DNA of 42,283 nucleotides from Deltaproteobacteria bacterium (GTDB lineage: Bacteria > Desulfobacterota > Desulfomonilia > Desulfomonilales > Desulfomonilaceae): contig JAJYDQ010000038.1 in the NCBI GenBank assembly GCA_021777225.1, forward strand, positions 1 to 42,283, written 5' to 3'. This document shows positions 2,901-21,757 of the stretch, in pieces (within the stretch, counting starts at the first letter, position 1; every line of letters begins with the position of its first letter). The notes beneath the pieces were generated by a model. The model worked only from the letters and a program-made list of their open reading frames with translations, had not been told where the DNA came from and made no database searches. The translations under genes and the position numbers were made by a program.

Positions 2901-4034
2901 TTAAAGGCCAACCCAACGCGCGATATTACCCTGCAACACTTCATGGGTTCCCCCACCGTTAAGCAGGAACCGGGAATCACGGAAATAACGTTGGGCGGTG
3001 TATTCCATTGAATACCCATAGCCTGCAAAAATACGCGTGCATTCGTCGGTGGCGCTACATGCCGCCTCTGTGGCAAAATATTTGGCCATAGTGGATTCTT
3101 TCAGGGCATCCTGGCCTGCGTCTATCATAGCGGCTGCTCTGTATGTCATCAATCTGGAGGCCTCAAGATTAGTGACCATATTCGCGATTTTGGCCTGGAT
3201 AAGCTGGAATTTGGCTATAGGTTTACCTGAAGCTACTCGTTCATTGGCGTATTTTATGGAATCAGCCATCGCCGCTCTTTGCAATCCAATTGCCAGCGCA
3301 GCGGTCATCGTTCGAATTTCAGCTATGATTTTGAGAAACGAATTCAGACCTTGACCTTCCGGGGTCAAACGGTATTCCTTGGGGATTAAAACATCTTTGA
3401 AGGCTACTTCACATATTGGTGTCGTGCGTGTCCCCAAACACTTAAACGGCGAACTGACAGAAACACCAGAGAAATGGCGAGGAACAAAAAAATAACCTAT
3501 CCCTCGCAGCCTTTTGGTCGGATCAGTCTGGCACATAACCGTATAAAAACTCGCTTCAGGCCCGTCGGTAACCCATGTCTTCATGCCATTAATCAGATAG
3601 CCATCATCGACTTCCGTCGCTCTTGTTGTAATAGCCCCCAAATCTGACCCTGCGTCAGGTTCCGTCATGCAGAAACAGCCAATTTTTTCGCCCCGCATAG
3701 CGGGCAAGAAATATTGATCAAGCATCTCTGGGGTCCCACTATGGAAAAGAAAATTGGTGCCCATTAAACATTGCATGGCGGTGATTGAGGCTACACTCAA
3801 CAAACCACGACTGATTTCTTCGCAGATTATGCAAAACAAGGTAGTATTGCCGCCTGCTCCACCCTTATGGCGAGGATAACGAATTCCGAAAATTCCCATT
3901 CTCGCTAATTTTTCAAAGATTTCCCGAGGGAATTCACCTTTGTTATCCAGTTCTTGAGCAACAGGAATGATTTCCTTATCAACAAATCTTGCGATATTCT
4001 TTCTAACAAGCTCTTCGGGATTTGATCTAATCAT
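2901..4034 (-). CDS. Acyl-CoA dehydrogenase family protein lacking the usual catalytic Glu
   Basis: This flavoprotein of 377 residues has the full acyl-CoA dehydrogenase layout: N-terminal helical domain, middle beta-domain with CMTEPDAGSDLG (122-133) and GMKTWVTDGPEA (150-161), and C-terminal helical domain ending AGYGYSMEYTAQRYFRD. It would use the EtfBA encoded immediately upstream as electron acceptor. The oddity is the active site. The usual YEGT motif after the RDxx helix is here Asn359-Gly-Gly361-Gly-Thr, so Gly361 stands where the general-base Glu normally is. The alternative base position (the residue before Arg in the LDxER helix, as in isovaleryl-CoA dehydrogenase) is Ile240, with Glu239 one residue off. 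It may be a dehydrogenase with a relocated base, or another ACAD-fold chemistry. The substrate is unknown. Confidence 0.9.
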   Translation of the reverse strand: MIRSNPEELVRKNIARFVDKEIIPVAQELDNKGEFPREIFEKLARMGIFGIRYPRHKGGAGGNTTLFCIICEEISRGLLSVASITAMQCLMGTNFLFHSGTPEMLDQYFLPAMRGEKIGCFCMTEPDAGSDLGAITTRATEVDDGYLINGMKTWVTDGPEASFYTVMCQTDPTKRLRGIGYFFVPRHFSGVSVSSPFKCLGTRTTPICEVAFKDVLIPKEYRLTPEGQGLNSFLKIIAEIRTMTAALAIGLQRAAMADSIKYANERVASGKPIAKFQLIQAKIANMVTNLEASRLMTYRAAAMIDAGQDALKESTMAKYFATEAACSATDECTRIFAGYGYSMEYTAQRYFRDSRFLLNGGGTHEVLQGNIARWVGL

Positions 4035-4070: not shown

Positions 4071-5270
4071 TTAATCACACATGACTTCGCAGGCTGTTCG
4101 AAGCTGCCTGGTTAATTCAGGGACTACATCAAACAAGTCTCCAACAATTCCCCAATCAGCTACCTTGAATATTGGCGCATAGGGATCTTTATTTATAGCC
4201 GCAACGAACCTTGAATCCGACATTCCAGCGCGATGCTGAATAGCGCCTGATACCCCGCACGCAATATAAAGTTCAGGTCGAACCGTTATTCCAGTCTGGC
4301 CTACTTGACTTGACGCAGGGATCCAACCGGCCTCAAACGCCACTCGAGTGCCAGCCAGTTCTCCTTCCAGGGCAACCGCCAGTTCGCGAAGTAGCTCAAA
4401 CCCCGCCGTATCGTTAACACCCCTTCCGCCGGCAACAATAATTTTCGCTTTGGATAAGTCTACGTGAGGTGTTTCTTCTTTCACAAACTCCAATATTTGG
4501 GTTCTAACCTTGTCTTCAGTTAGCGTTGAGCCATGAGGTATGACAGTACCTTTCGTAGATGGAGCAGGGACCACTTCCATGACTCCTGGCCTTACGGTCG
4601 CCATCTGAGGACGGGAAAAACGATTCGCTATGGTGGCCATGATGTTTCCGCCAAAGGCGGGCCTTGTTTGCAGCAAGATGCCTTCGTCCGGGTCAATTGA
4701 AAGATCTGTACAGTCTGCGGTAAGACCTGAACCTACACGCCTGGAGACTCTTGGAGCCAGGTCACGTCCGATATGGGTCGCTCCCATAATCAGGATATTG
4801 GGCTTGTAGGCGCTAACAAGCTCCTGGAAAACATGTGTGTATGACTCTGTCCGATAATCTTTAAAAATCGGGCCCTCGACCAAATGGACAGTTTCAGCGC
4901 CGAACTCTATCAAGGTATTGGCTAAATCGGTTACATGGTAACCAATCAAAACCGCTGAAACTTTTTCGTTCAACTGCTTGGCTAATTCCTGAGCTTTACC
5001 AAGTAGTTCCACTGAGACCCTGCTCAGTTTGCCGGCCCGTTGTTCGGCAAAGACCCAAACACCCTTGTATTCACTGAAGTCTGGAACGACCCTGGGCTGA
5101 ATATCAGAACGGATCGCCTCATGGTGACATTTATCTACGCATGCGCCACAACTTGTGCAGCGATCTCCGATTCGAGCCTTACCATCTCTAACTTCTATAG
5201 CGTCATATGGACACTCTCGTGTACAACGGCGACATCCGTCACAAAGATCAACTTCAACCCAGACTGCCAT
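4071..5270 (-). CDS. etfA: Electron transfer flavoprotein alpha subunit with N-terminal ferredoxin domain
   Basis: This 399-residue protein carries FAD and passes electrons from acyl-CoA dehydrogenases. The first 55 residues form a dicluster ferredoxin: Cys10, 13, 16, 20 and Cys38, 41, 44, 48, two CxxCxxCxxxC motifs for two [4Fe-4S] clusters. The EtfA domain follows, with the FAD-binding C-terminal part showing VAGGRGVNDT, SSQVGQTGITVRPELYIACGVSGA, and INKDPYAPIFKVADWGIVGDLFDVVPEL. Ferredoxin-fused EtfA is common in anaerobic fatty- and aromatic-acid degraders and gives a route to a membrane Fe-S oxidoreductase or ferredoxin. Whether this Etf bifurcates cannot be decided by eye. The gene is 36 bases upstream of the dehydrogenase gene and 99 bases downstream of etfB; its ATG follows AAGAGG. 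Confidence 0.95.
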   Translation of the reverse strand: MAVWVEVDLCDGCRRCTRECPYDAIEVRDGKARIGDRCTSCGACVDKCHHEAIRSDIQPRVVPDFSEYKGVWVFAEQRAGKLSRVSVELLGKAQELAKQLNEKVSAVLIGYHVTDLANTLIEFGAETVHLVEGPIFKDYRTESYTHVFQELVSAYKPNILIMGATHIGRDLAPRVSRRVGSGLTADCTDLSIDPDEGILLQTRPAFGGNIMATIANRFSRPQMATVRPGVMEVVPAPSTKGTVIPHGSTLTEDKVRTQILEFVKEETPHVDLSKAKIIVAGGRGVNDTAGFELLRELAVALEGELAGTRVAFEAGWIPASSQVGQTGITVRPELYIACGVSGAIQHRAGMSDSRFVAAINKDPYAPIFKVADWGIVGDLFDVVPELTRQLRTACEVMCD

Positions 5271-5369: not shown

Positions 5370-6161
5370 TCATATGAGCTTGTTTCGTTTGAATCGTTCT
5401 ACCAGATCACGGGCAACGCTTGCTGCGCTACCTTCCAGAAATTCGCTTTGCCGTTCAAACTTGGGGGCGAAAGTTTTTATGACCTGCGTCAGAGACCCGT
5501 TCATACCAACCTCTGCAGTGGTCACTCCTATATCCGCGGCGTTCCAAACCTCAATAGGGGCCCTCTTAGTACACGCAGAAAGAAGTTTCGATATCTCCGG
5601 ATACCGCGGTTTACTACGACCGCCAATGATTGTCAAAACAGCAGGGAGGGAACATTGGATTCGTTCGTATCCATCTTCGAGGCGACGTTTGACCTGTACA
5701 TATCCGGTGTCTAGCTTCTCGATATCAAAAACATAGGTCACTTGAGGCAGATCCAAATATTCCGCAATCTGAGGTCCAACCTGAGCGGTGTCACCATCAA
5801 TGGCCTGCCGACCAGTTAATATGAGGTCAAATTTTTCAACACGTTGAATTGCTTTCCCTAGAGTGAAAGATGTCGCCCAAGTGTCAGCTCCGGCAAAAGC
5901 CCGATCTGAAAGCAAAATGGCTTTGTCAGCGCCCATACCGATAGCCTCGGATAGAGCGTCGATCGCCTGGACTGGTCCCATGCTCAAAACAGTAATTGTA
6001 GCTCCGTGTGTTTCTTTTAAAGTGAACGCTGTTTCCAGGGCTTGAAGATCATCAGGGTTGACAATCGTGTCCACACCTTCACGAATCAGGTTACCGGTTT
6101 TTGGGTCCAGCTTGACTTCCGTGTTGTTAGGAACCTGCTTGACTAACACAATGATGTTCAT
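5370..6161 (-). CDS. etfB: Electron transfer flavoprotein beta subunit
   Basis: This 263-residue EtfB forms the heterodimer with the ferredoxin-EtfA encoded next. It begins MNIIVLVKQVP, has the VNPDDLQALETAF segment, SDRAFAGADTWATS, and the conserved nucleotide-binding loop GRQAIDGDTAQVGPQIAEYL, then VLTIIGGRSKPRYPEI. In classic Etf this loop binds AMP, while in bifurcating Etf the site holds a second FAD; the sequence resembles clostridial butyryl-CoA dehydrogenase partners, but I cannot rule on bifurcation. It sits 45 bases downstream of the CoA-transferase gene and reads as part of the same operon. The ribosome-binding site (GAGAG) is only moderate. Confidence 0.95.
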   Translation of the reverse strand: MNIIVLVKQVPNNTEVKLDPKTGNLIREGVDTIVNPDDLQALETAFTLKETHGATITVLSMGPVQAIDALSEAIGMGADKAILLSDRAFAGADTWATSFTLGKAIQRVEKFDLILTGRQAIDGDTAQVGPQIAEYLDLPQVTYVFDIEKLDTGYVQVKRRLEDGYERIQCSLPAVLTIIGGRSKPRYPEISKLLSACTKRAPIEVWNAADIGVTTAEVGMNGSLTQVIKTFAPKFERQSEFLEGSAASVARDLVERFKRNKLI

Positions 6162-6206: not shown

Positions 6207-7394
6207 TTAGATGACACCATCTTGGCCTAATTGCCCGATCTGTTGGCCTGAAAGTCCCAACTTGCCGTAAATTTCCGCATTGTGCTCGCCAAGACGAGGA
6301 GGAAAGCTCAATTGAAGACTATTACTTTCAAGAAATGATGTTGTAACTGGTGGTGGAGTTAATGTGATCTTCATTTTCGATTTGGGGTCCTGAATAGAAA
6401 GCAGGCGGCTTTGAACAAGAGGATCTGAAATCAATTCGTTGATGGAATTAATTTTACTCACTGGCACGGTTATGGAAGCGAAAAATTCTATCAACTCCTC
6501 TGAGGTATGTTCTCGCGTGATAGAATTCAGAGACGCGTTCAGTCTTTTAACGTCCTTGATGCGCCCGGCATTCTTTTCGTATTCTGTTTTGTCCAGGGAA
6601 CTAAAGAGTTCCTGGGAAACCATGGCCTTCCATTGGCGATCGTTTCCTACGGCCAAATAAATGAAGCCGTTCCTGGTTTGATAAACAGAAACAGGAGCAA
6701 AAAATTCGTGAGTGTTGCCACATCGAGTAATACGTTTCCCAAATGAAGCCGTCATCGTAACGGGCACAGCCAGCCAGGAAATCGATGAATCAAACATAGA
6801 CAAATCAAGCCGTGAGCCCCTGCCTGAAACAGCCCGGTTGAAAATTGCTTTCATCAGTAGCCCATATCCATGTTCGCTTGCGCCCAGGTCGGCTAGTGGA
6901 ATGCCTAAAACCTGAGGGTCTCCATCGGGCTCACCCGTTAGATCCATCAGCCCTGATTTGGCTTGCAAGACCGGATCATAAGCTCCTTCATCACTGTTAG
7001 GGCCAAAACCGGTTATTCCCATCCATATAATATCTTCTTTGACGGTTTTGAGAATGTCATAGTCAATACCAAGTTTTTTATAATTCCGTGGCAATTGGTT
7101 CGTAATAAAAATGTCGATATCCAATTCCTTGATTAACTTCAGTAACAAACCTCTTCCCGCAGGGTTAGCAAGGTTAAGGGTAATTGCCTTCTTCCCGGCG
7201 TTAATGCAAAGGAAATAGGAATTCATACGATCTTCGTTTAGCACATTGTCCCCAACCATACGATTAGGGTCACCTTGAGAGGGGTTTTCCAGACGTATGA
7301 TTTGCATGCCATCCATGGCCAAGCGATAGGTAAGGAAAGGCACTACCATAGCCTGTTCCAGAGAAAGAACTTTTAAATCTCTCAAGGTTTTCAT
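6207..7394 (-). CDS. Family III CoA-transferase (CaiB/BaiF type)
   Basis: This 395-residue protein belongs to the formyl-CoA transferase-like family, which moves CoA from a donor thioester to an incoming carboxylic acid through an Asp-acyl intermediate. The catalytic Asp is Asp169 in GIPLADLGASEHGYG, the same number as in oxalate formyl-CoA transferase. Typical family segments are LSLEQAMVVPF at the start, LVxLNLANPAGR around 73-81, TGEPDGDPQVLGIP, and GRGSRLDLSMFDS. It is the first gene of the leftward catabolic unit, so it probably activates the imported acid using a CoA ester made later in the pathway. The ATG follows GGGAGA. About 100 bases of leader separate it from a TTGACA promoter overlapped by a palindromic operator. 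The CoA donor and acceptor are not predictable. Confidence 0.92.
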   Translation of the reverse strand: MKTLRDLKVLSLEQAMVVPFLTYRLAMDGMQIIRLENPSQGDPNRMVGDNVLNEDRMNSYFLCINAGKKAITLNLANPAGRGLLLKLIKELDIDIFITNQLPRNYKKLGIDYDILKTVKEDIIWMGITGFGPNSDEGAYDPVLQAKSGLMDLTGEPDGDPQVLGIPLADLGASEHGYGLLMKAIFNRAVSGRGSRLDLSMFDSSISWLAVPVTMTASFGKRITRCGNTHEFFAPVSVYQTRNGFIYLAVGNDRQWKAMVSQELFSSLDKTEYEKNAGRIKDVKRLNASLNSITREHTSEELIEFFASITVPVSKINSINELISDPLVQSRLLSIQDPKSKMKITLTPPPVTTSFLESNSLQLSFPPRLGEHNAEIYGKLGLSGQQIGQLGQDGVI

Positions 7395-7487: not shown

Positions 7488-7504
7488 TTGTATACAGTAT
7501 ACAA
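7488..7504. promoter_or_regulatory. Perfect 17-bp palindromic operator (site 1), probable GntR/FCD site
   Basis: TTGTATACAGTATACAA is a perfect 8-bp inverted repeat around one central base. It begins two bases downstream of the leftward -10 element, so the transcription start of the CoA-transferase operon falls inside it, a repression geometry. A near-identical copy lies at 10853-10869 in front of the transporter operon. GTATAC half-sites are typical of FCD-type GntR regulators, and such a regulator is encoded in this operon. Confidence 0.8.
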
Positions 7505-7506
7505 CA

Positions 7507-7534
7507 TTTATGCCATACAAGAATAAGCTGTCAA
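7507..7534 (-). promoter_or_regulatory. Promoter of the CoA-transferase/etf/mutase operon
   Basis: On the minus strand a perfect -35 TTGACA (7534-7529) is followed after 16 bases by CATAAA (7512-7507), four of six matches to the sigma-70 -10 box. The operator starts two bases later. The rightward transporter promoter at 10822 has the same plan, which makes both more credible. Confidence 0.6.
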
Positions 7535-7597
7535 CTATTTTTTTCGCCCCTTGGACTTGCGCCATTGACGTACAATCAAGGGTGTAGAGTAGTCTTT

Positions 7598-7631
7598 GGA
7601 CATGAATCCCAAAATCCGGGAAATCATGTCC
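7598..7631 (-). terminator. Hairpin downstream of the aminotransferase gene
   Basis: GGACATGA (7598-7605) pairs perfectly with TCATGTCC (7624-7631), and CCC pairs with GGG inside it. It lies 42-75 bases after the aminotransferase stop and before the next leftward promoter, so it probably ends the upstream unit or protects its mRNA end. No leftward T-run follows, so it is not a classical intrinsic terminator. Confidence 0.45.
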
Positions 7632-7672
7632 TTGTTTCTGGGCCATAGGCCACTCTAACTTTCACGGAAAGC

Positions 7673-8920
7673 CTAAGTTCGTTTTATAGCTGCCAGAGAT
7701 TTATCAATCGCCTCCAAAGTCAGTTCCAGGTCCTCTTCAGTATGCCTGAAACTGATATACGCATGATGGTATGGAGAGAAAAAAAATCCCCTGCGGATCA
7801 TCTGAGTGTAGAAATCCTTGCGCTTACGTTTGTAGGCACCGGTATTGTCCTTCTTGAATGTGATGTAGAACATGGGCGCCACCCCGGTTAGTTCAGCGCC
7901 CACAGCATATTTGCCAATCAATGAGCGGATCCTTTTCATGAACCTTTCGCCTTTTTGCCAGATGTTTTCCAGCACATTGTCCCTCTCAAGTATTTCTATG
8001 GTCTTGAGGGCTGCAATAAAGGCATCGCTGTTCGGAAAAAAGGTTGATGAAATGAACAGTTTGTCAGCAGACGCCATCATGACGTCCCTTTTCCCGGTCA
8101 CAACAGAGATTGGATAGCCGTTGGCGATTGCCTTTCCCAGAACACTCACGTCAGGGGTGACACCATAAAGCTTCTGGGCTCCGCCCATTGAAAGCCTGAA
8201 GCCGGTACGGATTTCATCATAGACCAACACTGCGCCATACCTGTCAGCAATTTCCCTAACTCCCTCAAGAAATCCCGGTTTTGGGATCTGCATCTCTTGA
8301 TGGTTGGGATGACCGAAAGGCGTCATGATGATAGCGGCAGTTTGGTCTCCATGCCTTGCCATGAGGTCTGAGAGCTGTTCAAGGTTGTTGTACTGGAATT
8401 CGAAGACATCTTCAAAGAGCTTGGCCGGGATCCCGCCTTTCATTTCCACACACCAGTCATGCCAGCCATGGTACCCACAGCGCATCACCTTGAGTTTATT
8501 CGTATATGCCCTTGCAATACGAATACTTGCGCTAGTGGCGTCAGAGCCTGTCTTCAGGAATATGCTCAGCTCAGAAGAAGGCACAAGTTCAGTCAACTTC
8601 CTGGCTAGCAGGTTCTGGTATTTTTGTGTGAGAGTGAAACAGAATCCTTTCTCTCTTATTTGCCTGTAAACTGCCTCATCCAGCTCTTCTTCGCGGTAAC
8701 CCAGGATGATGGGGCCATAACCGCAGAGGAAATCAATAAACTCGTTACCATCAACATCGGTCAAGCGGCAACCTTTACCGCTTTCAAGAAAGATCGGATA
8801 TTCTCCTTCGATAAAGTCGACCGGCTTTCTCGCTCCCAGAACTCCACCCGGTATCAGTTCGGTGGCCTCTTCAAACAGCGCGAGGCTTTTCGTTATGTTG
8901 AGTTTGCTTATCTCTTTCAT
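7673..8920 (-). CDS. Class III (PLP) aminotransferase, glutamate-1-semialdehyde aminomutase-like
   Basis: This fold-type I PLP enzyme has 415 residues. The cofactor Lys is Lys263 in SVLGKAIANGYP, the pyridine-binding Asp is Asp235 in VYDEIRTGF, and the phosphate/substrate segments are TGSDATSASIRIARAYT (124-140) and CGYHGWHDW (148-156). It resembles HemL-type enzymes, but the operon contains no tetrapyrrole genes, so a catabolic transaminase or aminomutase acting on an omega- or beta-amino acid is more likely. The gene starts 20 bases after the saccharopine-dehydrogenase-like gene, with AGGAGA before the ATG, so the two are co-translated. Together they could remove an amino group before the carbon skeleton enters the CoA pathway encoded next. 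The substrate is unknown. Confidence 0.9.
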   Translation of the reverse strand: MKEISKLNITKSLALFEEATELIPGGVLGARKPVDFIEGEYPIFLESGKGCRLTDVDGNEFIDFLCGYGPIILGYREEELDEAVYRQIREKGFCFTLTQKYQNLLARKLTELVPSSELSIFLKTGSDATSASIRIARAYTNKLKVMRCGYHGWHDWCVEMKGGIPAKLFEDVFEFQYNNLEQLSDLMARHGDQTAAIIMTPFGHPNHQEMQIPKPGFLEGVREIADRYGAVLVYDEIRTGFRLSMGGAQKLYGVTPDVSVLGKAIANGYPISVVTGKRDVMMASADKLFISSTFFPNSDAFIAALKTIEILERDNVLENIWQKGERFMKRIRSLIGKYAVGAELTGVAPMFYITFKKDNTGAYKRKRKDFYTQMIRRGFFFSPYHHAYISFRHTEEDLELTLEAIDKSLAAIKRT

Positions 8921-8940
8921 GGGAAGTCTCCTGTCCTGTG

Positions 8941-10083
8941 CTAGACATGAACCAGCGACGAAATGGTTTCCGACTGATGGATTTTTGCGCCTCTCTTCAA
9001 GAATGCCGCAAGAAACGTCGCCGGATCGATACAGCCCTCAGGGGCGACCACTCCCTTTTCGGTTACGGAACCTTCGTCCATCATAAGCGCCGCAATGGAC
9101 GCGGGAAGACCAGTCCCAGGCGCCATCCTTCCCACCATGTCGGCTGTGTATGTAACGCTGGCGCCGTCTCTTTGACCTTTGACAATAACCTTGAGCCCGG
9201 AGGATTGGGGCCCGTTGTCCCGTCCTTCAGGAATGGTCTCCCAAAGTTTCAGAGCGAGATCGTAAGGCGTTACTTTGACGCCTTTCACCTCAATGGATTC
9301 TGTTCCCAGGAAGCCGGTGTCTTTCTGTTGCTTAATCAGATCATCTACCCATGGTGGAATGAGAGCGCCTTTGATTATCACGTTCTTCACGCCCTTGATG
9401 TATTTGGGGATTGTCAATGGCTGGGGATGGCCTACGTAGCGGAGATTGCAGGCGCCAAGGGGTTCCAGGAAATCGACAACAACTTCTCCAGCGCCACCTT
9501 CCACATGGACCAGTTCGCCATTCATGTATTGGGGTATCTTCCCAAGGGTCATATGAAGGCTGTGGTCCCAGGCCGCCCCCGCAAGTTCAGCAATACTCAC
9601 TACCCAGTAGAGATAAATCTCGTCAACACTGTCGAGATGATCCGCATACCACTTCACAAGAACGTTGTTAGTTCCGGGGTCCGAGCCCATGCCGGTCAGA
9701 ACGGTGATGCCCGCTTTTCTGGCGATTCCATCTATCTCAGAATTGAAGAGGACCTCTGTTCCTTCATAATCGTCACAGATGTCGATGTAGTTTACCTTGG
9801 CCTCAACTGCCGCCCTAGCCACAGGAACAGCAGTCTTGTAAAAAGGACCGGCGCAGTTAATCACCACGTCAACTTTTTTGAATGCGCTCACCATACCTGC
9901 ATGATCATTCACGTCCATTTTGATCAGATTAACTTTTTCGCTTTCGCGCAGTTTCGGCGCCAATCGTTCCGGGTCGGGGTATAAATCTCCCAAGACAACT
10001 GCTGCGACCCGTTGTTGTTTAATGAGGTCACGAGCGACACCCTGACCCATACCACCGGCTCCTCCTAGTACAAATGCACGCAT
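8941..10083 (-). CDS. Saccharopine dehydrogenase family NAD(P)-dependent oxidoreductase
   Basis: This 380-residue protein has an N-terminal Rossmann domain (LGGAGGMGQGVARDL, residues 6-20; INCAGPFYKTAVPVARAAVEA near 95-115; NYIDICDDYEG) and the GMGSDPGTNNVLV segment typical of the saccharopine dehydrogenase / carboxynorspermidine synthase superfamily. These enzymes reductively form or oxidatively cleave secondary amines between an amino acid and an oxo-acid, or act on related semialdehydes. Placement between an epimerase-like gene and a transaminase, next to an amino-acid-type importer, suggests catabolism of an amino or imino acid, possibly an opine-like compound; this is inference. It is probably not the lysine-biosynthetic enzyme, since no other lysine gene is nearby. 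Confidence 0.88.
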   Translation of the reverse strand: MRAFVLGGAGGMGQGVARDLIKQQRVAAVVLGDLYPDPERLAPKLRESEKVNLIKMDVNDHAGMVSAFKKVDVVINCAGPFYKTAVPVARAAVEAKVNYIDICDDYEGTEVLFNSEIDGIARKAGITVLTGMGSDPGTNNVLVKWYADHLDSVDEIYLYWVVSIAELAGAAWDHSLHMTLGKIPQYMNGELVHVEGGAGEVVVDFLEPLGACNLRYVGHPQPLTIPKYIKGVKNVIIKGALIPPWVDDLIKQQKDTGFLGTESIEVKGVKVTPYDLALKLWETIPEGRDNGPQSSGLKVIVKGQRDGASVTYTADMVGRMAPGTGLPASIAALMMDEGSVTEKGVVAPEGCIDPATFLAAFLKRGAKIHQSETISSLVHV

Positions 10084-10188
10084 CTGTCATTCCTCCTTGA
10101 TATTCGGGAATCGTCCCGCGTCCACCAAAAAACAATTTGATCTAACAAACTAAGAAGTGTGTTATTACCAGTAATGTTTTCCAAAATA

Positions 10189-10635
10189 TCAATCATGGCT
10201 TACTTCACGCTCACCGGTCTCAGGACGAATAAATTCTCCATCGATGATCTCAGTCAGTACTCCGTGAAAGGCCTTTGAGGGCTGGATGAACCCGTATCTC
10301 GCTCCCATGATCCGCCGAGGCTCAACGTCGATCGTCTGTATTCCCGTTTTGTTAAGTTCATTGAGGGCCTCTTTAACATCATCAACCTTGTAAGCAATCA
10401 GATAAAAACCTTCGCCGTTTCGGTCCAGAAATCGTGCTACTTCGCAAGTAGAATTGGTTGGCTCCATGATCTCGATCGCTACGCTCCCCACATAATAACG
10501 GACAACTCGAATACCCTCTTGCTCAGCGGTGTACTCGAACGCTGGTTGCATCCCCATTACTCCCTCATAAACCTTTCGCGCTTGTTCTACGCTTTTTACT
10601 GCGAAACAGATGTGGTCAACTTCCTTTACTTTCAA
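10189..10635 (-). CDS. VOC-fold protein, methylmalonyl-CoA epimerase-like but with altered metal site
   Basis: This 148-residue glyoxalase/VOC protein aligns throughout with methylmalonyl-CoA epimerase: VDHICFAV at the start (His8 as first metal ligand), VGSVAIEIMEP, GEGFYLIAYKVDDV and FIQPSKAFHGVLTEI near the end (terminal Glu ligand kept). In true epimerases the third segment reads GEG-HH-IA, and the second His binds metal; here it is Tyr-Leu. The His in the FLHP motif is also Gln. It may therefore act on a different substrate or bind no metal. The start is TTG, chosen because AGAGGAG lies seven bases upstream and the conserved VDHI sequence follows directly. It heads the unit with the reductase and aminotransferase, 105 bases away. 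Confidence 0.82.
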   Translation of the reverse strand: MKVKEVDHICFAVKSVEQARKVYEGVMGMQPAFEYTAEQEGIRVVRYYVGSVAIEIMEPTNSTCEVARFLDRNGEGFYLIAYKVDDVKEALNELNKTGIQTIDVEPRRIMGARYGFIQPSKAFHGVLTEIIDGEFIRPETGEREVSHD

Positions 10636-10821
10636 TAAAATTCTCCTCTTAAGGAACTTTCCTAATTAGTGATATAAAATACTCTCCGTGCTGCCCTTTT
10701 AGCTTTGAGGTTTTGTCGAATCCATTACAAAAATGTTGTTTTTAGATGGAAATTGGTTTCACATGGAAATATTCGTATCCCGCTGTTCAAACACAGCAAT
10801 CGTAGCGATTGCAGAAAGTAG

Positions 10822-10850
10822 TTGACAGGAAATTTGGCGTGTGACATAAG
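10822..10850 (+). promoter_or_regulatory. Promoter of the liv transporter operon
   Basis: TTGACA at 10822-10827, a 17-base spacer, and CATAAG at 10845-10850 (four of six -10 matches) make a sigma-70-type promoter pointing at livH. The operator copy starts two bases downstream, exactly as at the CoA-transferase promoter. Confidence 0.6.
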
Positions 10851-10852
10851 CA

Positions 10853-10869
10853 TTGTATACTGTATACAC
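10853..10869. promoter_or_regulatory. 17-bp palindromic operator (site 2), probable GntR/FCD site
   Basis: TTGTATACTGTATACAC differs from a perfect palindrome only at its last base and matches site 1 at 7488 read on the other strand. It overlaps the expected transcription start of the transporter operon. Confidence 0.77.
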
Positions 10870-11107
10870 AATCTAACGCATCCTGCTTTTGATTGTCGAG
10901 CAAATTTTCTTATGAAATTCATTTTTTCCTATTACCAAAGATCTCCGCGCCAACAACTCACTGTATTTAACGCATGTAGATGTTAATATACGCCCTTTAA
11001 ATTTTAACAGGACTCGGAAAAAATTTCGGTCAGATGTTCAAGTTTAATTTTACAACACATAGGCGTCCGTTTCTGACCACAAATTGGACCATGCGCTGGT
11101 GGGATCC

Positions 11108-11986
11108 ATGACCGACCATCTAGCCCAATTTATAGTCGCCGGCTTAACAACCGGAAGTATTTATGCCCTAATCGCGTTGGGATTTTGTGTCATCCATAAC
11201 ACGACTGGAATTGTTAACTTCACCCAGGGTGATTTTGTCTCACTAGGTGGATTGGTCATTTACTCACTGCTGATGAGCCTTAAAACGCCGTTAATTTTTG
11301 CCTTTCCACTGTCTGTTTTTGCGGTCACAGTTGTCGGAGCCATGGTGGAACGAGTGGCCATTCGCCCGGCAAGATCTCGCAGTGTTGTAATTCTTGTGTT
11401 CATCACTATTGGGGTTTCCGTTTTTATGAGAGGCGTTTTCAAGATTCTATGGGGAAAGAATCAAATGGGCCTCCCATCGTTTTCAGGTGAGACGCCCATA
11501 TCTTTTGTTGGTGCAACGCTAATTCCTCAAAACCTCTGGATTTTTGGCATCACTTTCATGTCAGTGATGTCCCTTCATTTTTTTTTCAACCGAACCAGAA
11601 TGGGAAAAGCCATGAGGGCCGCTGCCTGTAATCCCAAAGCCGCTTCGTTGATGGGTATAAATGTTAATTTAATGGTTTTGCTTTCTTTTGCGTTAAGTGG
11701 AGCGCTTGGAGCGATCGCGGGGATAATCATCGCTCCCATTACAACGCTTTCGTACGACATCGGTGTCATGTTGGGATTAAAGGGTTTCGCCGCCGCAGTT
11801 TTAGGGGGTTATGGGAATAGTTTCGGAGCAGTTGTCGGGGGGCTACTTCTGGGTGTGCTGGAATCAGTTGGGGCAGGCGTTGTTTCTTCCACCTACAAGG
11901 ATGTTATTGCTTTTGGCATACTACTTTTGGTCCTTTTTGTCAGGCCAGGTGGTATACTTGGTCATAGCGAGACGGAGCGACTATAG
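11108..11986 (+). CDS. livH: Branched-chain amino acid-type ABC transporter permease LivH
   Basis: This hydrophobic permease of about 292 residues is the first of two membrane subunits of a Liv-type (HAAT) importer. Characteristic segments are GLTTGSIYALIALGFCVIHNTTGIVNFTQGDF near the N-terminus, the RPARSRSV loop, the MRAAACNPKAASLMGIN cytoplasmic coupling loop (contacting the ATPases) and LGGYGNSFGAVVGGLLLGVLE in the last helices. I start it at the ATG at 11108 (preceded by GGTGGGA); an in-frame TTG at 11084 would add eight residues. Its stop is directly followed by the ATG of the next gene. Liv-type systems import amino acids, but relatives carry amides, urea and aromatic or dicarboxylic acids, so the cargo is open. 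Confidence 0.93.
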   Translation: MTDHLAQFIVAGLTTGSIYALIALGFCVIHNTTGIVNFTQGDFVSLGGLVIYSLLMSLKTPLIFAFPLSVFAVTVVGAMVERVAIRPARSRSVVILVFITIGVSVFMRGVFKILWGKNQMGLPSFSGETPISFVGATLIPQNLWIFGITFMSVMSLHFFFNRTRMGKAMRAAACNPKAASLMGINVNLMVLLSFALSGALGAIAGIIIAPITTLSYDIGVMLGLKGFAAAVLGGYGNSFGAVVGGLLLGVLESVGAGVVSSTYKDVIAFGILLLVLFVRPGGILGHSETERL

Positions 11987-13807
11987 ATGTCGACCAGGTC
12001 CTTTGATGGAAAATCACTTATCGGACCAGCAATTCTTGCTTTCTTTATAATTTCTCTCCCATTGCTAATCTCTAACCCATACTACCTGAATGTATTGAAC
12101 ATCATTGGTCTGAACACGATTGTCGTGGTAGGGCTAACCCTGTTAATCGGATACGCTGGGCAAGTTTCGCTTGGGCACGCGGCATTTTATGGAATTGGGG
12201 CTTACACTTCGGCAATCCTCTCCGTGACCTACGGTATTTCTCCATGGATAGCCATTATTCTCGCAGCTTTAGTAACCGCCACCATAGCCCTCATCATTGG
12301 GATCCCAACGCTCAAACTTCACGGTCATTATTTGGTCATGGCTACTCTGGGGTTTAACCTAATAACAAACATAATAATAGTGCAATGTGATTCAGTTACC
12401 GGTGGACCTTCGGGTTTCCCGGGGATCCCACCCCTGTCTATAGGACGCTGGGCTATCGATTCAGACATAAGGATGTATTTTTTAATTTGGTCGGTTACGC
12501 TAGTAGCAATCATTTTTGGGCTTAATCTAGCTAGATCCAGGGTCGGTAGAGGACTCCGGGCTCTTCATTCCGGCGAAGCGGCGGCAAATTGTATGGGAGT
12601 TCCAACCAGGATTTACAAGATCAAAATATTTGTGCTTAGCGCTGTTTTTGCCTCGGTGGCAGGGAGTCTTTACGCTCATTATCTGTCATTTGTCAGTCCC
12701 AAGACCTTCGATATCTTTTTCTCGGTGGAACTGGTGACCATGGTAATAATAGGGGGATTAGGGAGCATATGGGGAGGACTGTTTGGCTCTACTTTCATCA
12801 CCTCGTTACCCAATCTTCTGAGTTCTTTTGATGAGTATAAAGACGTCTTTTACGGCTTCATATTGGTTGTGATTTTGATATCAACTCCGGAAGGGCTTAT
12901 TCTCGAGATTTGCAGAAAAATAGATGTCTTTAGAAAAAAACGAAGACAAGGGAACAATGATTCGCGGGATAAACAGGAGTTAGATACAGTCGGTCCATCT
13001 TCCATTTCGGGTCTCTCTCTTGCAGCAAGTCGTCAAATTCTTCGTGAGCCACTTTTAAGAATCAAGAATATGTCCAAGAGATTTGGGGGTATTGCAGCCG
13101 TTTCGGAAATCACATTTGAAGTTGAAAAAGGGAGTGTTACATCCCTAATTGGGCCAAACGGAGCCGGCAAGACAACAACCATTAACCTAATTTATGGGGT
13201 TTACCGACCAAACAAGGGGACGATCATTTTTGGGCACAATCGAATTGATGGATTGAGTTCTTATCAAATAGCAGCGAGAGGTATGGCAAGGACTTTTCAA
13301 AATCTCCAGATTTTCGATAACATAACAGTTTTAGAAAATGTAATGGTTGGGGCGCATTCAAAACCCGGAAGTGAATTCCTGGTCTCAATGCTTCACATTC
13401 CACCCTATCAGAAAGAAGAGGAAATGATCCGTGAAAAGTCCATGGAAGCCCTTGAATTTTTTGGGCTGGATGAGGCGGCTGATTCCCCTGCCGGCCAATT
13501 GTCCTTCGGCGAGCAAAAACGACTAGAAATGGCTCGCGCTATAGTTTCTAAACCTGAACTGATATTACTTGATGAGCCGGTTGCAGGTCTTAACAGGGCC
13601 GAGTCCATGGAAATAGCGCACCTTATCATGAAGATCCGTTCCAAGGGAACTACGGTGTTACTTGTAGAGCATGATATTAATGTTGTAATGCGCATTTCTG
13701 ACAAAGTCGTTGTTTTAAATTACGGAACGATGATAGCAGAGGGAAGTCCAAAGCAAGTTCAAACCAACGAGGCTGTTTTGTCCGCATATCTCGGAGGCTC
13801 TTTTTAA
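11987..13807 (+). CDS. Fused Liv-type permease (LivM) and ATPase (LivG)
   Basis: This 606-residue protein joins two normally separate subunits. Residues about 1-320 are the LivM permease, with multiple membrane helices, GYAGQVSLGHAAFYGIGAY and the GLRALHSGEAAANCMGV coupling loop. A charged linker (about 320-350, rich in Lys, Arg, Asp) leads to the LivG ATPase, which starts near LLRIKNMSKRFGG. Walker A is IGPNGAGKTTT (about 388), the signature is LSFGEQKRLEMARA (about 504), Walker B is LILLDEPVAGL and the switch His lies in LLVEHD. There is no stop or frameshift between the halves, so it is a true fusion, seen in other Liv systems. It begins immediately after the livH stop with GGAG upstream and abuts livF with no gap. 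Confidence 0.93.
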   Translation: MSTRSFDGKSLIGPAILAFFIISLPLLISNPYYLNVLNIIGLNTIVVVGLTLLIGYAGQVSLGHAAFYGIGAYTSAILSVTYGISPWIAIILAALVTATIALIIGIPTLKLHGHYLVMATLGFNLITNIIIVQCDSVTGGPSGFPGIPPLSIGRWAIDSDIRMYFLIWSVTLVAIIFGLNLARSRVGRGLRALHSGEAAANCMGVPTRIYKIKIFVLSAVFASVAGSLYAHYLSFVSPKTFDIFFSVELVTMVIIGGLGSIWGGLFGSTFITSLPNLLSSFDEYKDVFYGFILVVILISTPEGLILEICRKIDVFRKKRRQGNNDSRDKQELDTVGPSSISGLSLAASRQILREPLLRIKNMSKRFGGIAAVSEITFEVEKGSVTSLIGPNGAGKTTTINLIYGVYRPNKGTIIFGHNRIDGLSSYQIAARGMARTFQNLQIFDNITVLENVMVGAHSKPGSEFLVSMLHIPPYQKEEEMIREKSMEALEFFGLDEAADSPAGQLSFGEQKRLEMARAIVSKPELILLDEPVAGLNRAESMEIAHLIMKIRSKGTTVLLVEHDINVVMRISDKVVVLNYGTMIAEGSPKQVQTNEAVLSAYLGGSF

Positions 13808-14560
13808 ATGTTGCGGATAGAAAACCTTCACGCCTTTTACCGAGGGAACGAAGCTCTTAAAGGTGTTTCGTTGGATGTAGGTCAAGGTGAAATCGTTGCG
13901 CTTATTGGGGCTAACGGGGCGGGCAAAACAACCTTGCTGAACTGTGTCTCTGGAATTCATACTGATATGATAGGCCAAATAACCTTCAATGGTAAGAACA
14001 TTGCCGGGGAGCCAGCGCATGAACTGGTAAAGCAAGGTCTTGTCCAATGCCCGGAGAACCGTCAACTCTTTGGCGTCATGTCTGTACAAGAAAACCTTGA
14101 AATGGGCGCATATCTTGCAACTGGAGAAATTCAGGGAGTGTCTTTGGCTAAGAGAATAGAGGATATGTTCCTCAAATTTCCTGTCCTAAAATCGCGGCGC
14201 AGGCAACTGGCAGGAACCCTGTCTGGTGGTGAACAGCAGATGGTCGCAATTGCTCGTGGTCTAATGTCGGATCCCAAATTGTTCATGTTGGATGAACCGT
14301 CACTAGGTTTAGCTCCTATTATTGTTGAGGACATGTTCCGTATTATAAAAGAAATGAAAAATGAAGGTAGAACCATATTGTTAGTGGAGCAAAACGCTCT
14401 GGCGGCTTTGGCTCTTTCGGACAGGGCTTACTTGCTTGAAACCGGGCGTCTGACATTAGGCGGTTCATCGACAATGTTCGTGAAAGATGATAGAGTCCGT
14501 CGGGCTTATCTTGGAAACGATATTGACGTGGAGCACATTTTTGACGACCTCTTGGACTAG
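13808..14560 (+). CDS. livF: Liv-type ABC transporter ATPase LivF
   Basis: This 250-residue ATPase is the second nucleotide-binding subunit and would pair with the LivG half of the preceding fusion. Walker A is IGANGAGKTTLL (residues 33-44), the Q-loop region contains QCPENRQLFGVMSVQENL, a LivF hallmark, the signature is LSGGEQQMVAIARGL, Walker B is LFMLDEPSLGLAP and the switch is LLVEQN. The ATG directly follows the TAA of the fusion gene. It is co-transcribed with the downstream binding-protein gene across a 137-base gap. Confidence 0.95.
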   Translation: MLRIENLHAFYRGNEALKGVSLDVGQGEIVALIGANGAGKTTLLNCVSGIHTDMIGQITFNGKNIAGEPAHELVKQGLVQCPENRQLFGVMSVQENLEMGAYLATGEIQGVSLAKRIEDMFLKFPVLKSRRRQLAGTLSGGEQQMVAIARGLMSDPKLFMLDEPSLGLAPIIVEDMFRIIKEMKNEGRTILLVEQNALAALALSDRAYLLETGRLTLGGSSTMFVKDDRVRRAYLGNDIDVEHIFDDLLD

Positions 14561-14697
14561 CTCAAACCTGGTGTAGCTCTGAGAAAATGGACCACGGGGA
14601 GTTCAACTCCACAAGGTTCTGCTCTCAACTGAATCTCATTCTCTTTTTTCTCAACCCTGGTTGCACCCGATACTTTAATTTCAAAGAAGGAGACAAC

Positions 14698-15861
14698 ATG
14701 AGAAAGATCCCGTTTTTGGCAGGGTTACTTATCTGTATCCTTTATCTTGGGAATGTGTACGCTGCGGAACCGATCAAGATCGGCGCCGTATATTCACTGT
14801 CCGGGCCAGCTGCGGCCATTGGAACGCCAACCAAACTTGTCACCCAAATGGTGGTCGAAAAGATTAATAAAGAAGGGGGAATAAACGGTCGCCCTATCGA
14901 ACTGGTGGTCGGAGATACCGAATCTGATCCTACCAAAGCCATTATGGTTGTAAAAAAATTCATTAACGTTGATAAAGTTTCGGCAATAATCGGTCCGGAC
15001 AGGACTGACCTTGGGATGGCTGTCAAGAAGCAGGTTGAAGACGCTGGTGTTCCCACATTCATGACTGTTGGAGGAGACCCGGTTATTATGAGTGGAGGAC
15101 CCTTGGGGACCTGTAAATGGGTTTTTAAGTCCCCTCAGAGAAGTTCTGTGGCCGTAGAAAAACTTTATGATTATCTAAAGAAAGAAAACCTAAAGAAAGT
15201 GGCGTTGATTACGGCTGCCGATGGTTTTGGTAAAGATGGAAAAGGCTGGCTAGAAAAACTTGCCCCTAAATACGGATTGACTATAGTGGCCAACGAATCA
15301 TTCAACCCGAAAGACACAGATATGACTGCCCAGTTGTCTAAATTCTCTTCTGCAAATCCGGATGCCATAGTTTGTTGGACAATTGGTCCGGCTGCCGCGA
15401 TTGTCGCCAAAAACGTTAAACAACTAAACCTCAAAGAACCATTGTTTCAGTGTCATGGAATCCCTGATCCCAAATATGTGGAGCTTGCAGGAACCGCCGC
15501 AGAAGGCAGCATAATGCCTTCAACAAAATTGATGGCCTGGGAACAGTTACCGGATAGTGATCCGCAAAAAAAGGTGATCAAAGATTTTGTCCACCTTTAC
15601 AACGATGTTTACAAAATCAACAATGAATTCCCTATTAATACTCATTCAGGATACGCGTGGGACGCCATTTACATCGTGGCCAACGCCATGAAAAAAGCAG
15701 GCGTTGAACCTGCAAAACTTCGTGACGCCATTGAACAGACAAGAGGTTATGTCGGAATAAGTGGAATCTACAACCTGACTCCAGAGGACCACAACGGACT
15801 CGGCACGGATTCGATGATAATGGTCCGTGTAAAAGACGGTAAATGGGAGTTATTGAAATAA
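14698..15861 (+). CDS. Liv-type periplasmic substrate-binding protein
   Basis: This type I periplasmic binding protein of 387 residues delivers the substrate to the LivH/LivMG/LivF importer. A Sec signal peptide (basic start MRK, hydrophobic core, cleavage after NVYA near residue 22) precedes IKIGAVYSLSGPAAAIGTP, the usual start of the mature domain. Later segments GGINGRPIELVVGDTESDP and IGPDRTD fit the LivK/AmiC family. The ATG at 14698 is chosen because AAGGAG sits just upstream and the signal peptide begins there; an ATG at 14587 would add an uncharacteristic leader. No lipobox is seen. The ligand cannot be read from sequence; operon context favours the acid or amino acid consumed by the neighbouring CoA pathway. 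Confidence 0.93.
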   Translation: MRKIPFLAGLLICILYLGNVYAAEPIKIGAVYSLSGPAAAIGTPTKLVTQMVVEKINKEGGINGRPIELVVGDTESDPTKAIMVVKKFINVDKVSAIIGPDRTDLGMAVKKQVEDAGVPTFMTVGGDPVIMSGGPLGTCKWVFKSPQRSSVAVEKLYDYLKKENLKKVALITAADGFGKDGKGWLEKLAPKYGLTIVANESFNPKDTDMTAQLSKFSSANPDAIVCWTIGPAAAIVAKNVKQLNLKEPLFQCHGIPDPKYVELAGTAAEGSIMPSTKLMAWEQLPDSDPQKKVIKDFVHLYNDVYKINNEFPINTHSGYAWDAIYIVANAMKKAGVEPAKLRDAIEQTRGYVGISGIYNLTPEDHNGLGTDSMIMVRVKDGKWELLK

Positions 15862-16465: not shown

Positions 16466-17722
16466 TCACTCTCTTATTTGTCCTTCTCCCAGAACAATAA
16501 ACTTAGTTGTGGTCAGGTCCTTAACACCCATCGGCCCATAAGCGTGGATCTTGGTTGTGCTGATTCCAATCTCTGCTCCCAGTCCAAACACATATCCATC
16601 GCTCATTCGAGTAGAAGCGTTGACCACAACTGTCGAAGAGTTTACTTCCCTTAAAAATTTTTGAGACGCGTCATAATCTTTTGTGACAATAGCTTCAGTA
16701 TGAAGTGACCCATATTTTGCAATATGCTTGATAGCCTCATCCATATTCTTGACAATTTTGACAGCCAGAATAAGATCCAGGTATTCGGCGTACCAATCAT
16801 CCTCAGTCGCCGGGGTCATCCAATCAACCACACGTCTACTGTTTTCACAACCCCTTAACTCAACCCCGGCACGTTTCAATTCCGAAGAGACTTTTGGAAG
16901 AAATTCTTCAGCGATCAATTCATGGACGAGCATCGTCTCAAGTGAGTTACAAACACCGGGACGTTGCGTCTTGCCGTTTAAGGCTATCTTGACAGCCATA
17001 TCCTGGTCTGCGAATTCATCTACATAGAGGTGGCAGACCCCTTTGTAATGCTTGATGACAGGGATTCTGGAATTCTGGGAGACAAACCTTATAAGTTCTT
17101 CGCCACCTCTTGGGATAATAAGATCTACTAATTCTTCCAACTTTAGAAGATGCAGGATGGCTTCACGATCCGTAGTCGGCAGCAGGTTGACAATATCCGG
17201 ATTTACACCAAAATTGTTAAGAGTTTCCTTGAATATATTCACTATGGCCATGTTGGAATTAAAGGCTTCCGAACCGCCGCGAAGTATGACGGAATTTCCG
17301 GCTTTCAGACATAATGCGGCGGCGTCCGCAGTAACATTGGGCCTCGATTCATAGATTATCCCAATAGTTCCCAGGGGAATTCTCATTTTGCCTACCCGCA
17401 TGCCGTTAGGTCTAGTCCACATTCCAGTGATCTCGCCAACCGGATCAGGAAAAGCGGCAATTTCTTCGAGACCTTCAACTGTCTGCTTAATTACTTTATC
17501 AGAAAGGGTTAGACGATCTATCATCGCAGTAGATAATCCGCTTTTCTTTCCGGACTCTAAGTCCTTCAGGTTTTGGTTCTGAAGATTTTCTTTTTCGGCC
17601 GTTATTTTGCGCGCAACTTCAGTTAGAATTACGCTTTTGGTTGACATTGAAAGTTTGGCGGCATCCGCTGCGGCTTCATGTGTAACTCTGGCTATGTTGA
17701 ATGTTTCTTCCTTGACAGACAT
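16466..17722 (-). CDS. proA: Glutamate-5-semialdehyde dehydrogenase (gamma-glutamyl phosphate reductase)
   Basis: This 418-residue enzyme reduces gamma-glutamyl phosphate to glutamate semialdehyde with NADPH, the second step of proline synthesis. It has the standard ProA length and motifs: IPLGTIGIIYESRPNVTADAAALCLKAGN (115-143), the LRGGSEA loop, IIPRGGEELI, and the catalytic Cys258 in TQRPGVCNSLET. The C-terminal part has SSTVVVNASTRMSDGYVFGLGAEIGIST. The ATG follows CGGAGTG. No proB lies beside it. It looks like a housekeeping gene separate from the catabolic locus. Confidence 0.96.
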   Translation of the reverse strand: MSVKEETFNIARVTHEAAADAAKLSMSTKSVILTEVARKITAEKENLQNQNLKDLESGKKSGLSTAMIDRLTLSDKVIKQTVEGLEEIAAFPDPVGEITGMWTRPNGMRVGKMRIPLGTIGIIYESRPNVTADAAALCLKAGNSVILRGGSEAFNSNMAIVNIFKETLNNFGVNPDIVNLLPTTDREAILHLLKLEELVDLIIPRGGEELIRFVSQNSRIPVIKHYKGVCHLYVDEFADQDMAVKIALNGKTQRPGVCNSLETMLVHELIAEEFLPKVSSELKRAGVELRGCENSRRVVDWMTPATEDDWYAEYLDLILAVKIVKNMDEAIKHIAKYGSLHTEAIVTKDYDASQKFLREVNSSTVVVNASTRMSDGYVFGLGAEIGISTTKIHAYGPMGVKDLTTTKFIVLGEGQIRE

Positions 17723-17918
17723 GGCTCACTCCGAGTGTATGTTGAGTTGATCATAGCAATTGGGAAATGTTATGGTGCATGTTCGGCATCGACACTTAGA
17801 AAATTATGATTAGCACCTGCCTATTGATTTATCAACCGATACGCGTCATTAATTTGGAGTTATCAGTTGCCTGTAGTTGCACGTGTTTGAGGTATTTAAA
17901 AATTGAGGGGTTCATTTG

Positions 17919-18434
17919 ATGGTTCCAATTATTTCTGTCGTTGGCAAATCAGGTTCAGGCAAGACGACTTTACTTGAAAAATTGATAAGGGAACTTACCA
18001 AACGAGGACATAGGGTCGGGTCAATAAAACACGACGCGCATTCATTCGAGATAGATCATGAAGGGAAAGACTCCTGGCGTCACAAGAAAGCGGGCGCTGT
18101 CCTGACTCTTATTTCTTCAGCTTCCAAAATAGCCATGGTTTTGGACTCGGACCATGATCATTCTCTAAAAGAATTACGTGATAAATTTGTCAGAGACGTG
18201 GATTTGGTTTTAGCAGAAGGTTACAAACGTGAAGATCTTCCTAAAATTGAGGTATTCAGGAGTTCCCACCGCAAAGAGATGCTATGCTCGAAAGAGGATA
18301 ATCTGGTCGCCGTGGCTGGTGATCCCCCTTCAGTTCCACATGGGATCCCCGTATTTGACCTGAATGATCCAGTTACTCTGGCGAATTTTATTGAGCAGGA
18401 GTTCCTGTTGGCAAGAAACAGCATTAGAAACTAA
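17919..18434 (+). CDS. mobB: Molybdopterin-guanine dinucleotide biosynthesis protein MobB
   Basis: This 171-residue P-loop GTPase helps make the dinucleotide form of the molybdenum cofactor. Walker A is GKSGSGKTT at residues 9-17, followed by IKHDAHSFEIDHEGKDSWRHKKAGA, a MobB hallmark, and DLVLAEGYKREDLPKIEVFR (Walker B region). I start at the ATG at 17919, eight bases after GAGGGG; a TTG just upstream is less likely. The gene is 1.9 kb from a molybdenum hydroxylase operon. MobB classically serves bis-MGD enzymes, whereas xanthine-dehydrogenase-type enzymes normally use the mono-cytosine form, so it may instead serve formate dehydrogenase-type enzymes elsewhere in the genome. Confidence 0.92.
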   Translation: MVPIISVVGKSGSGKTTLLEKLIRELTKRGHRVGSIKHDAHSFEIDHEGKDSWRHKKAGAVLTLISSASKIAMVLDSDHDHSLKELRDKFVRDVDLVLAEGYKREDLPKIEVFRSSHRKEMLCSKEDNLVAVAGDPPSVPHGIPVFDLNDPVTLANFIEQEFLLARNSIRN

Positions 18435-18459
18435 TTATCAGGACAAGGGCCACTCAAAC

Positions 18460-19254: not shown

Positions 19255-19386
19255 TCCAATGCCCCATGGTCAATGGTAAGCAACCTGTTTCCATTGAGAC
19301 TACGTGTTCATGATTATGAACTATATTTAAATTCATTACCGTTTTGAGGCTTGATTGTCAACGGAATTATCTTAGCATTTTATACC

Positions 19387-19416
19387 TTGACACTATCTGT
19401 TGATAAAGACTATTTT
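19387..19416 (+). promoter_or_regulatory. Candidate rightward promoter upstream of the Cys-rich/Mo-hydroxylase genes
   Basis: A perfect TTGACA (19387-19392) is followed after 18 bases by TATTTT (19411-19416), four of six -10 matches. The palindrome at 19428 begins 11 bases downstream, near the likely transcription start. Confidence 0.45.
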
Positions 19417-19427
19417 ATTACCAAATA

Positions 19428-19443
19428 GTTCTGAATACAGAAC
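19428..19443. promoter_or_regulatory. Candidate IclR operator palindrome
   Basis: GTTCTGAATACAGAAC is a perfect 6-bp inverted repeat with a 4-base centre, 12 bases before the start codon of the downstream gene and just after the candidate promoter. Its location in the iclR-divergent region suggests an operator. Assignment to the IclR protein is inference. Confidence 0.5.
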
Positions 19444-19455
19444 GAACCCAATACG

Positions 19456-20193: not shown

Positions 20194-20289
20194 ACCAGGG
20201 GTTCATGTTGTTCGGTTTGTATCCCCCGGACAATTTGAACTTTATATCTCTAACATTTTTATTCCTTAATTAAACGGGAGGAAAAGAGC

Positions 20290-21177: not shown

Positions 21178-21273
21178 CCGAGCTTGCATATAAAACCGAT
21201 TAATATCTAGGTGTTGCACATTTGAGTTAATGTATTTACCAGAAATGGATCTCGTTTCGCCGGAGAACGAAAT

Positions 21274-21756: not shown

Positions 21757-21757
21757 T

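Follow-up and report, generated by a model that had tools for sequence, protein, structure and literature searches.

Predicted operators of a GntR/FCD regulator at the iaa and Liv operons of a Desulfomonilaceae bacterium

Two putative operators and the operons around them

Contig JAJYDQ010000038.1 of GenBank assembly GCA_021777225.1, from a Deltaproteobacteria bacterium placed in the Desulfomonilaceae, is a stretch of 42,283 nucleotides, the whole of which was analysed and is called the window below. It carries two matching palindromic sites (O1 and O2), a gene for a GntR-type regulator with an FCD domain, and three operons: a leftward operon with coenzyme A (CoA)-transferase and B12-mutase genes, identified below as iaa; a rightward operon for a Liv-type importer; and, between them, a leftward operon of three genes referred to as epi-sacDH-hemL. 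On comparative evidence it is likely that O1 and O2 are operators of the in-operon regulator and that they jointly control the iaa and Liv operons and probably the epi operon. Genomes, contigs and loci are given by our own handles (G, C and L numbers). The control elements and the regulator gene are as follows.

7488 to 7504, no strand: operator O1, TTGTATACAGTATACAA; GTATAC boxes at 7490-7495 and 7497-7502 on a pitch of 7 base pairs (bp); conserved upstream of iaaL orthologues
7507 to 7534, minus: iaa operon promoter; -35 TTGACA 7529-7534, 16-bp spacer, -10 CATAAA 7507-7512, O1 2 bp downstream
10853 to 10869, no strand: operator O2, TTGTATACTGTATACAC; in the middle of the gap between the divergent epi and livH genes; conserved in G004 and G006
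10822 to 10850, plus: Liv promoter; -35 TTGACA 10822-10827, 17-bp spacer, -10 CATAAG 10845-10850, O2 2 bp downstream
10870 to 10899, minus: possible epi-sacDH-hemL promoter; TCGACA 10899-10894, 18 bp, TAGATT 10875-10870, abutting O2; from a consensus scan, weak (9/12)
2118 to 2825, minus: GntR/FCD regulator, proposed repressor; Pfam GntR and FCD domains; kept in the iaa operon across the phylum

Both palindromes lie where the original prediction had placed them, and its statement that they are the only two in 42 kb is borne out, with no further match in the window at up to three mismatches. Shuffled versions of the window held a mean of 0.09 matches at this tolerance, and two matches were seen in none of 100 shuffles. 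Across the whole 4.04-Mb assembly O1 and O2 are the only sites with one mismatch or none. Ten other sites have three mismatches each; a reversed-pattern control gives 21 sites at the three-mismatch tolerance, so these ten can be put down to chance, and with only O1 and O2 within one mismatch and the remainder below the control, the pair itself is not a chance occurrence. The promoter geometry also reads from the sequence as had been claimed, with TTGACA, a 16- or 17-bp spacer, CATAA(A/G), 2 bp and then the operator, and the layout of the iaa promoter recurs in relatives.

The regulator gene had been predicted to lie within the first operon, and it does. Its product has an N-terminal GntR winged helix (PF00392, 51 bits) and a C-terminal FCD domain (PF07729, 81 bits), both above cut-off. 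Among 395 genomes sampled from the phylum, 58 have an orthologue or close homologue, in the same operon at nearly all loci read. The FCD residues His148, His192 and His214 are invariant in all 45 orthologues compared. Histidines of FCD domains coordinate a metal, which in turn holds a carboxylate ligand, and indoleacetate or an acid of the pathway is a likely signal for this protein. Comparison of the GntR protein with an IclR-type gene at 18460-19254 showed no relationship between them.

The operon behind O1 consists, apart from the regulator gene, of the following genes.

6207 to 7394, minus: IaaL-type class III CoA-transferase (PF02515), first gene behind O1
5370 to 6161, minus: EtfB (domain search)
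4071 to 5270, minus: EtfA with an N-terminal 4Fe-4S (ferredoxin) domain (domain search)
2901 to 4034, minus: IaaF-type benzylmalonyl-CoA dehydrogenase; active-site GGG, not YEG
1695 to 2111, minus: B12-binding subunit of acyl-CoA mutase, IaaG/H type (profile matches)
55 to 1683, minus: acyl-CoA mutase large subunit; Tyr89 and Arg207 of methylmalonyl-CoA mutase kept

An IaaL-type CoA-transferase and a two-subunit B12 mutase thus share one operon in the window, one of the features that mark iaa clusters; in that pathway IaaL is a phenylsuccinyl-CoA transferase and IaaGH a benzylmalonyl-CoA mutase (PMC8360864). The decarboxylating benzylmalonyl-CoA dehydrogenase IaaF has GGG where other acyl-CoA dehydrogenases have YEG (Schuhle et al. 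2021, PMC8360864), and the window dehydrogenase ends LNGGGTHE, with GGG found also in the linked dehydrogenases of orthologous clusters. A dedicated Etf is also reported for predicted iaa operons in sulfate reducers (PMC8360864). In the mutase, the Y of RQY and the R in the segment aligned to MVRNTYI correspond to Tyr89 and Arg207, and the enzyme therefore fits a dicarboxylic acyl-CoA substrate. At L046, from a 90%-identical relative, the operon continues into hydantoinase-like A and B genes, a PaaK-type CoA ligase gene and genes for a three-subunit molybdenum (Mo) hydroxylase. The window contig stops past the mutase gene, and contig C15 of this genome opens within the hydantoinase A gene, with the remaining genes in the same order; we infer that C15 adjoins the window contig. 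Given the GGG motif, the IaaL/mutase set, the dedicated Etf and the hydantoinase, ligase and Mo-hydroxylase genes, the leftward operon is therefore an iaa operon for the anaerobic degradation of indole-3-acetate (auxin), its substrate being predicted from the genes. The B12-mutase pathway with an unknown signal of the original prediction can thus now be given an identity.

Two other assignments were considered and rejected. The best PDB match pointed to 2-hydroxyisobutyryl-CoA mutase and an acetone pathway; that mutase has Ile for Tyr89 and Gln for Arg207, whereas the window mutase keeps both original residues. The best NCBIfam models for acd and etfA pointed to an acryloyl-CoA reductase; their scores do not reach the curated cut-off, and such a function is at odds with the GGG motif.

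The genes on either side of O2 are as follows.

11084 to 11986, plus: LivH-type permease, first gene rightward of O2 (domain search)
11987 to 13807, plus: LivM-LivG fusion of permease and ATPase (domain search)
13808 to 14560, plus: LivF ATPase (domain search)
14587 to 15861, plus: periplasmic binding protein; best solved-structure matches include the aromatic-acid receptor CouP
10189 to 10635, minus: methylmalonyl-CoA-epimerase-like (epi), first gene leftward of O2 (profile); same site on the orthologous operon in G278, G065 and G388
8941 to 10083, minus: saccharopine-dehydrogenase-like, sacDH (domain search)
7673 to 8920, minus: HemL-like class III aminotransferase, hemL (domain search)

The CouP structures 4jb0 and 4jb2 are among the best solved relatives of the Liv binding protein, and CouP has been shown to bind aromatic phenylpropenoid acids (PMC3610893); the Liv genes fit the uptake of an aromatic acid. 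It had been proposed that O1 drives the leftward operon and O2 the Liv genes. The promoters are indeed so oriented; however, O2 has its centre at 10861 and the gap between epi (10635) and livH (11084) has its midpoint at 10860, and since O2 is centred in a divergent intergenic gap it need not serve Liv alone. Because distant genera have this operator at the orthologous epi operon by itself, O2 probably acts in both directions, and thus probably also on the leftward epi-sacDH-hemL operon. In G006 there is sequence similar to the weak leftward promoter.

The epi-sacDH-hemL genes (window 7673-10635) are candidates for enzymes new to anaerobic auxin metabolism, one of which may be an epimerase acting on the malonyl-CoA intermediate. 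An inverted repeat, GCAATCGTAGCGATTGC, lies at 10796-10812, immediately upstream of the Liv -35 element, and is roughly retained in G006 (GCAATCGCATAGATTGC); by its score it would be a weak terminator or attenuator of transcription running leftward, and alternatively it may be the site of a second regulator. Further right, at 16466-24118, genes for an aldehyde dehydrogenase-like protein, MobB, IclR and a second Mo-hydroxylase set stay beside the Liv genes within the genus (L155, L157, L158).

Operator anatomy and conservation

The description of each site as a 17-bp palindrome stands, although two GTATAC boxes, each a palindrome in itself and set 7 bp apart, describe it better. GTATAC, a GT-N2-AC core present in both O1 and O2, fits the GT-Nx-AC rule for operator boxes of the GntR family (PMC4494728). 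At least one perfect GTATAC occurs in all 39 aligned sites, with GTATCC, GTATGC, GGATAC and GTACAC among the variants of the second box. The operator of G236 has four successive GTATAC boxes on a 7-bp pitch (L128, about 1281-1311), and upstream of iaaL in G010, G014 and G017 (L051-L053) the series GTGCAC/GTATAC/GTGCAC/GTATAC follows the same pitch. By analogy with NanR on (GGTATA)3, the 17-mer may be two adjacent boxes, possibly with one dimer on each. In nearly all lineages TTGACA lies upstream and the operator follows the -10 element directly or overlaps it, a placement that would suit a blocking repressor.

To follow the sites in relatives, we took 32 regions upstream of iaaL beside a regulator orthologue, from 26 genera and 10 families, and scored a two-box site as a core with at most two mismatches and a 17-mer with at most four. 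Such a site was found in 25 of the 32 regions, compared with 0.25% of Markov-shuffled sequences, and the footprint spans 20 of the 26 genera. One family has a split operon headed by gntR, and there the site stands 4-62 bp before gntR in all seven loci read; gntR genes internal to an operon have no site directly in front. G004, the only relative assembled across both operons, keeps both operons and both sites, with 13 of 13 core positions identical at each; its Liv promoter has the 13-bp core unchanged in flanks that are about 51% alike. The original prediction would have been refuted by loss of the palindrome from relatives with both operons, and G004 thus passes that test.

Six genomes (G001, G007, G008, G009, G011 and G013), several of them in assemblies 81-83% complete, encode an IaaL homologue (58-70%), mostly beside a mutase gene, and have no close regulator orthologue. 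Over the 420 bp upstream, all six of these IaaL homologues are free of boxes (Fisher p = 6e-4 for a pair of boxes, 3e-6 for a single one), and the Liv operon of G001 is likewise without a site. The scan of relatives thus finds the site beside orthologues of these operons, following the regulator across ten families and missing where the regulator is missing. The six regulator-less genomes also show a second type of iaaL/mutase cluster (L164-L170), divergent from a Mo-hydroxylase gene, in which no GntR gene was found.

The predicted regulon is larger than two operons in relatives. When up to two mismatches are allowed, sites in 38 regulator-positive genomes sum to 89, whereas the reversed control gives 31, and a further fifteen loci with sites were read. 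The site precedes an epi-sacDH-hemL-like operon that has no Liv genes in G278, G065 and G388 (where purD and a gene for an isocitrate/isopropylmalate dehydrogenase stand ahead of it), genes for hydantoinase in G219, G359 and G376, Mo-hydroxylase genes in G376, and in G304 an etfB displaced from the main operon. Transporters are found in the same position: one of the TRAP kind in G290, one of the Liv type in G205 and, in G051, an acyl-CoA dehydrogenase gene followed by a TRAP transporter, with a second site before iaaL. Because sites precede both kinds of gene, a single operator appears to join uptake to catabolism repeatedly, with different transporters. An old-yellow-enzyme-like oxidoreductase gene stands beside a site, near an epimerase-like gene, in G329, G348 and G051 (L054:2715-4712, L210:2064-4160, L211:4777-6714).

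A proposed switch and competing explanations

Comparative genomics supports the proposal of a GntR regulon linking transport to a B12-mutase pathway, in that sites track regulator orthologues and G004 keeps both. Through such a switch this strict anaerobe probably turns on auxin uptake and breakdown. The regulator would occupy the paired GTATAC boxes at the transcription start, just downstream of the -10 element or, in other lineages, overlapping it, and because the boxes lie at that position the bound protein would block RNA polymerase. It would be released, as we infer, when the metal site of the FCD domain takes up a carboxylated ligand, which may be indoleacetate or a pathway intermediate, for example (2-aminophenyl)succinate or the CoA ester of that acid. 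Release would switch on iaaL-etfBA-iaaF-gntR-mutase and the genes past the contig end, would co-induce the Liv-type importer with its aromatic-acid-type binding protein, and would probably also induce the divergent epi-sacDH-hemL-like operon. The wider proposal, that a GntR/FCD repressor on phased GTATAC boxes is a phylum-wide anaerobic auxin switch over uptake, iaa and the previously unlinked epi-sacDH-hemL operon, we favour by a little over even chances. If true, anaerobic auxin (or tryptophan-derived) metabolism would gain epi-sacDH-hemL as a new functional component.

Several observations weigh against control of these operons by the in-operon regulator. Seven of the 32 iaaL upstream regions are without a good second box, six of them retaining one intact GTATAC near the expected position; in G150 there is just one box, standing alone and at another distance. 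On the Liv side, only three members of a single genus show the site, and for G006, which keeps it, the 85%-complete assembly gives no close orthologue of the regulator. The motif is present in a few genomes without this operon, and G290, G317 and G400 have several more sites with no role assigned. Four further FCD regulators are encoded in this assembly, and the gene of one of them, on contig C80 (L161), is preceded by a single GTATAC box that closely follows a TTGACA/TATAAG promoter.

One alternative is that O2 controls the leftward epi-sacDH-hemL genes only, with the Liv genes as neighbours outside this control. The presence of the same site before orthologous epi operons free of Liv genes speaks for it, but a good TTGACA/CATAAG promoter faces livH with the operator spaced as at O1, and elsewhere the site precedes transporters, both Liv-type (G205) and TRAP (G051, G290). 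Within the genus, moreover, the site keeps near the centre of the gap, a position tied to control of both operons (PMC4494728), and we regard control of epi alone as unlikely.

That the sites are genuine operators of another FCD/GntR paralogue, the in-operon regulator having other targets, is a small chance in our estimate. Boxes of the form GT-Nx-AC are common to GntR-family proteins (PMC4494728), the motif is found in some genomes that do not have this operon, and since the C80 gene has a GTATAC box upstream, a GntR protein other than the in-operon one could bind the site too. Against this, the presence and absence of the site track orthologues of the in-operon regulator, the site stands before gntR where gntR heads the operon, and the FCD gene on contig C69 (L098) has a different palindrome in front, ATTCATAATTATGAAT, likely its own operator. 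The upstream sequences of the FCD genes on C91 and C153 were inspected and hold no strong palindrome. The box at the C80 gene may reflect cross-talk or autoregulation.

We give a still slimmer chance to the regulator acting at these sites as an activator or anti-activator in place of a repressor. Dual-role GntR proteins are known, but the operator lies at, downstream of or over the -10 element in nearly all lineages, which is a blocking position, and in many promoters TTGACA is already perfect and the -10 good. Finally, the sites are short, but an origin of the two palindromes by chance or as a repeat element has a negligible probability and is ruled out by the conservation data, since none is expected by chance and the footprint recurs in 20 of 26 genera.

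Relation to known systems

The pathway, the regulator family and the type of box are all known; what appears to be new, as read from sequence comparison, is the link between regulator, operator and anaerobic auxin pathway. Genes for anaerobic auxin degradation were already known in denitrifiers and predicted in sulfate reducers. No regulator-operator pair for the pathway was found in the open-access papers searched; a text search of papers for the operator motif gave nothing relevant, and the study of MarR regulators leaves the anaerobic pathway aside (PMC9613470). The conserved operator would offer a simple handle on the controlling signal of the pathway, would tie the transporter and epi-sacDH-hemL to it, and could serve in searches for auxin-responsive genes of uncultured anaerobes.

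Hydantoinase-like and Mo-hydroxylase genes are part of the iaa operon of Aromatoleum aromaticum as well. That operon shares with ours the CoA-transferase, the two-subunit B12 mutase, the GGG-type dehydrogenase, the CoA ligase and a dedicated uptake binding protein, and its binding protein is IaaM and its regulator genes are iaaQ and iaaR (PMC8360864, PMC9613470). It differs from the window operon, which has a dedicated etfBA and an internal GntR/FCD gene. IacR and IadR of aerobic auxin catabolism are likewise local regulators of an auxin-degradation locus and are released by indole-3-acetate (PMC9613470), but they have a MarR fold, another operator and an aerobic pathway, whereas the window regulator is of the GntR/FCD type.

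Among GntR-type systems, Escherichia coli NanR on (GGTATA)3 resembles the proposed switch in its short tandem boxes downstream of the polymerase site, to which several NanR dimers bind, and in its coupling of uptake and catabolism (PMC8012715); the window boxes differ in being GTATAC, on a 7-bp pitch and usually two. Members of the FadR subfamily with two-nucleotide GT-N2-AC boxes (PrpR, MdcY and HypR) share the core and carboxylate-type effectors (PMC4494728), the window effector being a proposed one, and differ from the window, where two cores 7 bp apart build the 17-mer; that survey included only 10 delta-proteobacterial members of the subfamily. On the transport side, the CouPSTU and TarPQM systems of Rhodopseudomonas palustris are comparable in that CouP (4jb0) and its relatives are among the best solved matches of the Liv binding protein, and in that ABC and TRAP systems serve alternately (PMC3610893), as they do at the sites in relatives.

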